From: Gammaproteobacteria bacterium
GTDB lineage: Bacteria; Pseudomonadota; Gammaproteobacteria; GCA-001735895
Assembly (NCBI GenBank): GCA_029862125.1
Contig: JAOTXY010000034.1
Location: 1-32,742 of the forward strand
DNA length: 32,742 nt
Direction: 5' to 3'
Of the stretch, positions 18,391-20,734 are shown piece after piece; within the stretch, counting starts at the first letter, position 1; the number at the start of each line of letters is the position of its first letter. The translations under genes and the position numbers were made by a program. The notes beneath the pieces are model-generated. The model did not search any database. It had not been told where the DNA came from and saw only the letters and a list, made by a program, of their open reading frames with translations.

Positions 18391-19077
18391 ATGCGAGCAA
18401 TAGTCATAGAAGACGATGTCGATATCCAGCAGCAAATTGTCACACGTTTGAAATCCGAGGGCTTTGCGGTCGATAGCGCTGACAATGGTGCCGAGGGCCT
18501 TTACCTGGTCCAGGAATATCCAGCGGATGTTGCCATTATTGACCTGGGTCTACCCAAAATGTCCGGGCTTGAAGTGATTAACCAGATCCGCGACCAGGCC
18601 AACAAAATTCCAATCCTGATCCTGACTGCCAGGGGTCGCTGGCAGGACAAGGTAGAGGGACTTGATGCAGGTGCCGATGATTACCTGGTCAAGCCTTTCC
18701 ACCACGAGGAAATGATGGCGCGGATTCGTGTACTGATCAGGCGTGCTTCCGGATGGTCGGATTCACGCATTGTGTGTTCACCGGTCATCCTCGATACCGC
18801 GGCCCAGCGCATCTATGTCGATGAGCGTGAACTGGATTTAACGGCGTACGAGTATAAGGTGCTGGAATACCTGATGCTGCATGCCGGAGAAGTGATCTCG
18901 AAGACGGTTTTAACCGAGCATTTATATGATGATGAATCGGACAATGACAGTAATGTCATTGAAGTGTTTATTCGACGTTTACGTCAGAAACTGGATCCTG
19001 ACGAGAGCTTAAAGCCGATTGAAACCCTGCGTGGCCGAGGCTATCGTTTTACGCTGCAGCGTGCGGAGCAGACCTAG
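18391..19077 (+). CDS. phoP: OmpR/PhoP-family response regulator
   Basis: This 228-residue DNA-binding regulator has a receiver domain (about 1-115) with acidic pocket E7-D8-D9, phospho-acceptor D51 (IIDLGLPKMSG), T79 and K101 (DDYLVKPF). A winged-helix output domain follows (about 128-225), with LDLTAYEYKVLEYLM, ESDNDSNVIEVFIRRLRQKL and ETLRGRGYRFT. The run PILILTARGRWQDKVEGL resembles Pseudomonas PhoP strongly, and the paired kinase is PhoQ-like. Assignment to PhoP rather than another OmpR member rests on that resemblance. Its stop at 19077 is followed 4 bp later by a 302-bp structured element that separates it from the kinase gene. Confidence 0.88.
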   Translation: MRAIVIEDDVDIQQQIVTRLKSEGFAVDSADNGAEGLYLVQEYPADVAIIDLGLPKMSGLEVINQIRDQANKIPILILTARGRWQDKVEGLDAGADDYLVKPFHHEEMMARIRVLIRRASGWSDSRIVCSPVILDTAAQRIYVDERELDLTAYEYKVLEYLMLHAGEVISKTVLTEHLYDDESDNDSNVIEVFIRRLRQKLDPDESLKPIETLRGRGYRFTLQRAEQT

Positions 19078-19081
19078 ACTG

Positions 19082-19383
19082 GTGCTCTTTCAACATTATA
19101 ATTGCGAGTTCAGTAAGCTTGTCAACGTTCACGGCAAGGCACGCCTCGCAGATAATGGCCACACCCTTGTCAAGAGGCGCAACGCAGTCCGTGGGCGTTG
19201 ACAAGCTTATCCGAAGGGGCGTCCCTGTGCTGTCCCGCAACCGCGTTGCAGTGCTCGACAAGGGAAGACCCAAAGCATTCGCTTCGCTCATGGGGCCAGC
19301 TTTGGCCCATGCGCTTCGCACTGCACTTTGTTGCGAAACAGCACAGGGACGCTGAATCCGTAATTATAATGTTGAAAGAGCAC
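19082..19383. mobile_element. MITE-like non-coding element with perfect 22-bp terminal inverted repeats
   Basis: The ends 19082-19103 and 19362-19383 are perfect 22-bp inverted complements. Two further stem-loops fill the interior. Arm A pairs 19114-19134 with 19189-19209: 14 perfect base pairs, two T-G positions, then five more pairs. A CGCCTC/GAGGCG stem lies inside it at 19142-19147 and 19174-19179. Arm B pairs 19219-19241 with 19330-19352, including a 15-bp perfect stretch. It continues inward with an 8-bp stem (19247-19254 with 19318-19325) and a capped hairpin at 19289-19311. The whole 302 bp can therefore fold as a three-way junction. No transposase is present, the short open frames inside look like by-products of the repeats, and I see no clear target-site duplication. 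It accounts for nearly all of the 310 bp between the regulator and kinase genes. Confidence 0.75.
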
Positions 19384-19387
19384 TAAG

Positions 19388-20734
19388 GTGAAATCGATCA
19401 AATCCAGGCTGACACTGGTATCGATGGTGGTGCTGGTAGTATTCATGGTGCTCACTGCGATTGCGCTCGAGCGTGCCGTCGTAAAGCGCGCCCTACAGGC
19501 GGAGGAAGATGGGCTGCAACTGCTGATATACAGCCTGTTGGCCGCGGTCGATCAGGATAGCCGGGGTCTCAGTATTACCGTATCTGAAGATCGTCTGTTT
19601 GAACCGGGCCTGGTGATTCGAAATTCGGGGCTGTACGCGCTTTTGTACAACCGGTATAAACGGGAAATCTGGCGTTCCGAGTCGATTACCGTCAGTTTCC
19701 CGGCAATCGGCGGGATAGATCCCGGGGAATGGGATTTTCAAACAGTAGAACATCTTGCCACACCTTACTTTCGCCTCGGATTTTCACTGCAGTGGCCGGA
19801 CGTCAACAACCAGCTGCAACGCTATGAAGTGGTTATCTGGCGTAACGCGGTCGATTATTTCGAACAGCTCAACCGGTTCAGGCAAACGCTATGGGCCTGG
19901 CTGATCGTAACCACGATTCTGCTGTTGGTCATTATGTATCTTGTTACCCGCTGGAGCCTGCGACCACTGCAGCAAATCGGACTCGAAGTTAAGGCCATCG
20001 AGGATCAAAAGCAGTCAGGATTCGAGCAGGATTATCCCGCTGAGATCGCTCCGCTAACCGAAAACCTGAATATCCTGTTGAAACGGGAACAATACCAGCG
20101 CCAGCGTTATCGCAATGCGATGGATGATCTTGCCCATAGTCTGAAAACACCGCTCGCGGTATTGACCGGCTTGAGTGATCAGGATGCTATCGATCAGGCA
20201 CATATCGAGATCCTGCGCGATCAAACCGAGCGCATGAACCAGATTGTTTCTTACCAACTGCAAAAAACAACCGGGTCGTCAGATATTCGCATTAGCAAAC
20301 CGGTTGACCTGATCAAGATTGTCGACAAGCTCCTGTCTGCGCTGGAAAAGGTTTACCAGGAAAAAGGGATCGTTGTCGAACGCGACCTGCCTGCTCAAAT
20401 ACTGCTGCGTATGGATGAAGGGGATTGCCTCGAAGTAGTCGGGAATTTACTGGATAACGCCTTCAAATATGGCAAAAAAAGAATCTTGATCGAAGCCAGC
20501 ACAAGCGAGTCCAGGTCGATGACACTGGCAATTGAAGATGATGGCGATGGCTTGCCCGGGGAAGAAATACAACAGATTCTGAATCGAGGTACGCGTCTTG
20601 ACCAGGCCACGGAAGGGCAGGGCATAGGACTGGCGGTGGTCGCTGATATTGTCGAGTCTTACAATATTGAGTTGAATTTCAGCGCCGCAAAATTAGGTGG
20701 CTTGAGGAGCAGTCTCGGATTCCAGACGATCTGA
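19388..20734 (+). CDS. phoQ: PhoQ-like sensor histidine kinase
   Basis: This 448-residue inner-membrane kinase should phosphorylate the regulator encoded upstream. It has a membrane segment at about 8-28, a periplasmic sensor region of about 140 residues, a second membrane segment at about 168-190 and a HAMP linker. The H-box reads DDLAHSLKTPLAVLTGL (phospho-acceptor H250), which matches the PhoQ-type HSLKTP rather than the usual HELRTP. ATP-binding boxes follow: N-box VVGNLLDNAFKYGKK, G1 IEDDGDGLPGEE and G2 GQGIGLAVVADIVE. The start is GTG at 19388, four bases after the inserted element, with no strong ribosome site between. GAAAGAG within the element's end is the nearest purine-rich stretch. 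The ligand cannot be read from sequence. Confidence 0.85.
   Translation: MKSIKSRLTLVSMVVLVVFMVLTAIALERAVVKRALQAEEDGLQLLIYSLLAAVDQDSRGLSITVSEDRLFEPGLVIRNSGLYALLYNRYKREIWRSESITVSFPAIGGIDPGEWDFQTVEHLATPYFRLGFSLQWPDVNNQLQRYEVVIWRNAVDYFEQLNRFRQTLWAWLIVTTILLLVIMYLVTRWSLRPLQQIGLEVKAIEDQKQSGFEQDYPAEIAPLTENLNILLKREQYQRQRYRNAMDDLAHSLKTPLAVLTGLSDQDAIDQAHIEILRDQTERMNQIVSYQLQKTTGSSDIRISKPVDLIKIVDKLLSALEKVYQEKGIVVERDLPAQILLRMDEGDCLEVVGNLLDNAFKYGKKRILIEASTSESRSMTLAIEDDGDGLPGEEIQQILNRGTRLDQATEGQGIGLAVVADIVESYNIELNFSAAKLGGLRSSLGFQTI

Follow-up and report, generated by a model that had tools for sequence, protein, structure and literature searches.

The 302-bp element at positions 19082-19383, between a phoP-like and a phoQ-like gene, has about 14 copies in its own genome, itself included, and is very probably a non-autonomous transposon (MITE) of the IS630/Tc1-mariner type. 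Two hairpin arms lie between its ends, and the fold of these arms is conserved while their stem sequence changes almost completely. The mobile-element part of this explanation is well supported; for the arms, our best guess is a direction-independent mRNA hairpin. Positions refer to the window, the whole stretch of 32,742 nt that was analysed (contig JAOTXY010000034.1 of a Gammaproteobacteria bacterium).

Structure of the element and its site

A first-pass annotation had described the ends at 19082-19103 and 19362-19383 as perfect 22-bp inverted complements. This was confirmed, and the pairing extends to a 32-bp terminal inverted repeat, P1, at 19082-19113 (plus strand) and 19352-19383 (minus strand), 91% complementary over the 32 bp. 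P1 resembles IS630-type ends. Arm 1 (19114-19209, plus strand) has an inner stem of 19114-19134 paired with 19189-19209, the head motif CAAGGC at 19135-19140 and CAACGC at 19180-19185; its mismatches are T-G on the plus strand, as had been claimed. Arm 2 (19219-19351) is an arm of the same kind read on the minus strand, with an inner stem of 19219-19241 and 19330-19352. Its outer head motif is degenerate in the window copy, CAAAGT compared with CAAGGC in the copy at locus L002. The earlier description of the interior as two stem-loop arms was correct for both arms but omitted a fourth small helix between them, the linker mini-hairpin TCC-GAA-GGG (TCCGAAGGG) at 19210-19218 on the plus strand. 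The extent given for the 302-bp unit also stood, except that 36 bp within it (19267-19302, plus strand) form a small repeat of their own within the loop of arm 2. This repeat is missing from 264-bp copies such as L003 and accounts for the greater length of the window copy over the 264-bp core. It belongs to a REP-like palindromic stretch of 36-48 bp (CCCAAAGCATTCGCTTCGCTCATGGGG type), separate from the element, that recurs across the genus within the arm loops of large elements and apparently also standing alone; besides the window it was seen at L012 near a 5S rRNA gene, at L009, and in genomes G009, G012, G003, G004 and G007.

The plus strand of the element, as RNA, is predicted to fold end to end, as had been proposed, at -174.5 kcal/mol compared with -97.4 (sd 4.7) for 100 shuffled sequences (z -16.5). 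The minus-strand RNA gave z -13.5 and the element as DNA z -13.9, so that both strands fold far beyond shuffles and the structure is as unusual as first thought. No ORF of at least 100 aa, the lower limit of the ORF list, lies inside. No Rfam family was found at gathering score over the window or at E 5 over the element, and a scan of the element found no intrinsic terminator. Five promoter-like sites were counted against 0.3 expected, all of them consensus matches in the window copy, the only one scanned; two read inward, with TATAAT inside the element ends.

Upstream lies an OmpR-type response regulator gene (18391-19077, plus strand; best NCBIfam model PhoP, below cut-off), its stop codon ending 4 bp short of the element. 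The GTG start of the downstream sensor histidine kinase gene (19388-20734, plus strand; best NCBIfam model PhoQ, below cut-off) lies 4 bp after it. The element is flanked by TG at 19080-19081 and TA at 19384-19385. The TA is presumably one copy of a duplicated target and the TG a degenerated second copy, G006 having TA at the same place. This insertion is common to G006, which is 94% identical. In G008 the same site (L080) holds an element remnant in the opposite orientation, and in G004 it retains an end-like GGAGTACTA.

Copies, insertion sites and the IS630 connection

A BLAST search of the element's own genome gave 23 matches, six places being full length, including the window's own. Since two of the partial matches, L009 and L010, showed the same architecture with nearly all stem sequence replaced, a covariance model of one arm (R1) was built from four arms; its E-values are rough. 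R1 gave at least 27 matches in the own genome, at 14 elements including the window's own plus one weak single match, two of the 27 being the same arm on the other strand. At least 21 of 39 genomes, own included, matched in the search of relatives, and in a sample of the class at least 103 of 369 genomes and 79 of 271 genera did so at E ≤ 1e-4 per genome. These counts are lower bounds, as 150 of 1255 candidates were scored in the own genome, up to 114 per genome among the relatives and 12 in the class. A pattern search of named genomes yielded 87 stretches, 80 of them listed; carriers among the matches listed were Sedimenticola, Candidatus Thiodiazotropha, Thiobacillus denitrificans, Halothiobacillus, a Lysobacteraceae, Hydrogenophilales and many MAGs. 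Of these stretches, 28 were checked with a model-free script, and in 25 of them at least 26 of the 32 end positions are paired. The exact pattern CAAGGC..CAACGCNGTCC was too strict, with just two matches in the own genome, and a distant-mode search of plasmid and phage collections gave no match. The search for further copies that had been suggested at the outset thus showed the element to be multi-copy and dispersed at unrelated loci. In G220, an assembly of many contigs, 63 end matches with at most three mismatches were seen, about 38 of them exact and many near contig ends, and several arms had equal model scores. This suggests that the G220 copies are a recent burst and a cause of the fragmented assembly.

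A script requiring paired ends collected 67 candidate elements, one of them foreign (the second L132 match, 223 bp); leaving out this match, L009, L063 and L116 gave 63 oriented elements. The family core is typically 264 bp and consists of a 32-bp P1, arm 1, a nine-base linker, arm 2 and P1. The linker is usually a CCC-N3-GGG mini-hairpin, in many copies with the form C-GNA-G. Of the 111 recognised arms, 90 have the start of the head motif CAAGGC at 53 nt from the end and the other 21 at 54 nt; 15 of 126 arms were dropped from the arm tables because the motif was unrecognised. The motif is on the top strand in the left arm and on the bottom strand in the right.

Several variants were observed. 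Deletion derivatives, namely L344 (G008) compared with L041, L008, and the G008 phoP-phoQ remnant, are hardly more than a short palindrome of the outermost 13-14 bp of each end, or one half only. L164 (G038:C31:102421-102595) and L214 have the terminal stem and a single arm, so an arm can be lost. Quite different ends, of the GGGAAA, AGAGCCTATTTC and AAGGAACCTCTG types, occur at L202, L206, L212, L225, L236, L255 and L272 and are perhaps served by other transposase families. At L132 (1629-1877, G021) a family member seems to have inserted into one end of a different palindromic element, whose ends are TAACACTAGTTGAAACGTCACTG.

TA was present on both sides of 35 of the 67 script-found candidates, and CT/AG at many element borders. 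Comparison with empty sites gave a net gain of 2 bp for L037 against G006, L010 against G008, L005 against G008 and G003, L003 against G006, and L041 against G012. The empty site read CTAG at L003, L005 (in G008) and L037, GTAG at L010 and TTAG at L041; CTAG is the target that IS630 prefers. An exact base-for-base duplication of TA could be read at L037 only among these five. A clean gain of 2 bp was absent at L002, L004, L006 and L034, comparisons at L007 and L031 were ambiguous, and some with more distant genomes differed by other lengths. A net gain of 2 bp at a TA, as an IS630-type target duplication would give, was thus observed at five loci. Together with the multiple copies and the IS630-like ends, this bears out the initial description of the element as MITE-like and non-coding.

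The flanking ORF pairs were co-directional in 36 of 40 cases compared with 69 of 110 other pairs at the same loci (p 0.001), and under a looser count 50 of 64 were co-directional, 6 convergent and 5 divergent, with 3 lying inside an ORF; the genes in these counts were called by longest ORF and are guesses rather than annotated genes. In 28 of 62 elements the TAG stop of the neighbouring ORF takes its G from the first base of the element, while 10 of 64 other CTAG sites in the element loci are stop-codon sites. On their other side, 30 of the 62 elements have a start codon no more than about 30 nt away, and in the wider sense both features are found at 21. A TAG stop was read directly in the empty site at L003, L005 and L006 only, and a border TAG can arise by chance in an interrupted ORF. 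Since CTAG often holds a TAG stop and the element starts with G, it would be able to settle in an operon with neither gene broken.

No IS630 transposase was found in the element's own genome, which is about 91% complete. In a PF13358 search of six genomes the domain was present in G220 and G235, with no match in G000, G021, G038 and G107; IS630 relatives were found in 2 of 31 genomes of the genus and in 35 of 369 sampled from the class. The G220 IS630 element is 1,242 bp long, lies between CTA and TAG, and has perfect ends of about 30 bp (GTACATCGACCAGTTTATATTGACGGAT) and two open frames, which match PF13358 and NF033545 (the C-terminal frame above cut-off, the N-terminal below). Its ends differ from most P1 in G220. 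IS630-family insertion sequences in other genomes of the class are 1.2-1.4 kb. Of 14 IS630 loci inspected, 10 provided 11 ends; both ends were found by inverted-repeat search for three insertion sequences only, and seven further ones contributed one end each, hand-chosen from TAGT-type text matches near the transposase. Each of the 11 ends matched some copy in a set of 133 P1 sequences, seven of them added by hand, at 20-25 of 28 bases (each p ≤ 0.002), compared with 13 on average and 20 at most for permuted ends. The comparison with insertion sequence families that had been proposed thus revealed a resemblance to IS630 ends, in other genomes. The closest pair was GTGGTCTAACAACTTAGTATTGATGGATAGAG in G313 and GTGGTCGAACAACTAAGGATTGATGGATGCAG in a small element of G021.

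The pairs that match best belong for the most part to separate genomes, which leaves mobilisation in trans by IS630-type transposases an inference. In no genome did we see an insertion sequence together with a small element whose ends equalled its own. No autonomous end pair 1-1.5 kb apart was seen either, with two end patterns tried on 14 G038 match loci and, among the matches listed and judged by eye, on G220, G087, G235 and G335; these searches showed small elements and solo ends. A partner in the same genome is not required because it can be lost, and as the IS630 ends of other genomes resemble P1, trans mobilisation of this type is the best explanation. R1 gave a single match of E 0.012 in the 14 IS630 loci and nothing better, so these insertion sequences seem to be armless. 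At L368 (G003:C209) an IS630 element at TA abuts an end-like stretch of a small element with a different end type.

In the mechanism we propose, an IS630-type transposase acting in trans would cut at the P1 repeats, and the element would be pasted into TA, often within CTAG. Insertion at a TAG stop borne by CTAG would restore the stop, the element supplying its first G.

Pairing and strand sense of the arms

In an alignment of 150 arms, 95.1% of cells were paired (67.0 after shuffling), 1337 cells had changed on both sides (353.5), and double changes occurred at 31 of 33 pairs (25.0); none of 500 shuffles reached any of these values. The alignment leans toward pairing, being the best 150 of 182 matches fitted to the R1 structure. 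A model-free count of 111 arms found several positions with all four Watson-Crick pairs in quantity. Covariation across copies, which the first-pass annotation had proposed to examine, is thus very strong in the arms. P1 is 92% Watson-Crick in 61 distinct copies, compared with 58% when shuffled and 24-27% when slid.

The mismatches depend on the strand. On the plus strand of the 63 oriented elements, arm 1 has 88 mismatches of G-T type and 21 of A-C, while arm 2 has 18 and 81; P1 is roughly balanced, with 78 and 60. With each arm read from its own terminus towards the interior, the non-Watson-Crick cells comprise 380 G-U, 68 A-C and 175 others, 33 of the 68 A-C cells sitting at two head-adjacent pairs of doubtful pairing. 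RNA folding is better in the inward sense for 128 of 150 arms. Inward-read arms favour G-U, and therefore each arm has a preferred strand, the two arms having opposite ones. As the arms are mirror images, a single RNA would contain one arm right and one wrong, and a transcript from either side would meet the correct arm first. G-U tolerance on one strand over the whole structure, as expected of a structured RNA, was not found. The earlier idea of a structured RNA carried by a MITE therefore gains from the very strong covariation, but mirror-image arms do not fit an RNA read from one strand.

We believe that the internal arms may be a fold maintained by selection rather than leftover sequence. 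Whichever side the mRNA is read from, the arm that RNA polymerase reaches first would fold in its preferred sense. The correctly folded arm could be a hairpin for processing, by RNase III or otherwise, or for stability, and could keep the insertion tolerable in either orientation.

The arms might instead act as folded single-stranded DNA, for example as strand-specific sites for the transposase or a host protein, a reading we consider possible but doubtful. The mirror symmetry about the two ends would suit it as well as it suits an mRNA, as would the many C-GNA-G linkers and the preference for G-T and G-A mismatches; C-GNA-G forms very stable mini-hairpins in DNA, and G-T and G-A are the more stable mismatches in DNA too. 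Apart from the one match at E 0.012, however, the 14 IS630 loci have no clear arm, and ISY100 transposase alone, binding the terminal repeats, suffices for transposition (PMC2170065).

A mutational origin of the pairing, in which quasi-palindrome correction keeps the stems paired and the covariation reflects no selection, appears unlikely. Such correction occurs when template switching copies one arm onto the other. It would account for P1 and arms that are nearly perfect although little stem sequence is common between copies, and partial or deleted palindromes do exist (L008 and the G008 form of L041). It would not be expected to leave mismatches at fixed positions, but two neighbouring arm pairs retain U-G, in 74 and 46 of the 150 arms, and three pairs retain G-A type mismatches; nor does it explain the fixed stem lengths, the head lying 53 or 54 nt from the end throughout the recognised arms.

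A resident structured RNA gene or riboswitch of a phoP-phoQ leader, transcribed from the plus strand, would fit the very stable fold, the strong covariation and the 4-bp distance to each gene, but is highly improbable given the copies at unrelated loci, the reduced form in G008, the failure to find the element at this site in ten more distant relatives, the opposite mismatch bias of the two arms on the same strand and the lack of an Rfam match; the single-copy structure kept in place between phoP and phoQ that the first-pass annotation had held out as the alternative to a mobile element was thus not what we found. Equally hard to credit is an element that moves as single-stranded DNA and duplicates no target, in the manner of REP/RAYT or attC, which the palindromic non-coding sequence, the CT/AG borders and the four compared sites that were not clean might favour, but which the net 2 bp at five empty sites and the long IS630-like terminal repeats speak against.

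Relation to known repeats and meaning

The usual view of MITEs is that each arises from one insertion sequence by deletion. The closest parallels to the IS630-type MITE described here come from other bacteria. The RUP element of Streptococcus pneumoniae is likewise a small non-coding repeat with IS630-like ends and a TA target, for which trans-mobilisation by IS630-Spn1 was proposed; it is 107 bp long with 9-bp ends and belongs to one species (PMC2229807), while the present family has 32-bp ends, is typically 264 bp long, contains two arms with conserved heads and occurs in many genera of the class. The Correia (NEMIS, CREE) elements of Neisseria also have TA at their ends, ends that fold in mRNA and frequent positions next to genes, and RNase III binds or cuts their stem (PMC2229807, PMC2649163). 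They are about 107 and 155 bp long and are set apart here by description, not by sequence; their mobiliser is given as not determined in PMC2649163. IS630 and ISY100 (Tc1/mariner) share the TA duplication (PMC2170065), as well as the CTAG preference and similar ends, but encode a transposase and had no clear arm in the 14 loci searched. QMITE1 and QMITE2 of Coxiella (PMC5896051) and the MITEs of Candidatus Thiomargarita nelsonii (PMC4853749), one of which was likened to IS630, are gammaproteobacterial and strongly structured as well; compared by description, they differ in their direct repeats, reported as 2-3 nt, 7-11 nt, 10 bp and TATAG (PMC5896051, PMC4853749), but may be kin.

No published description of this MITE family was found in titles and abstracts, with supplements, subscription journals and ISfinder outside the scope of that search. 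A literature text search with strings of the element sequence returned one plant herbicide-resistance paper, judged unrelated. We therefore regard this class-wide family of IS630-type MITEs provisionally as undescribed.

A broader history can be offered only tentatively, and as a whole we think it rather unlikely to be right: an ancient MITE core with two mirror arms would have spread class-wide, its ends tracking changing IS630-type transposases, while the arms served as an mRNA device working in either direction that made the element harmless in operons. What the family presents is one internal fold joined to many different ends. Such a combination would mean that the interior of a parasitic element is under selection, or that some mutational mechanism keeps palindromes close to perfect. 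Landing at operon stop codons and completing the stop would be a neat route to tolerance. The arm model also offers a way to annotate many intergenic hairpins that lie outside Rfam.
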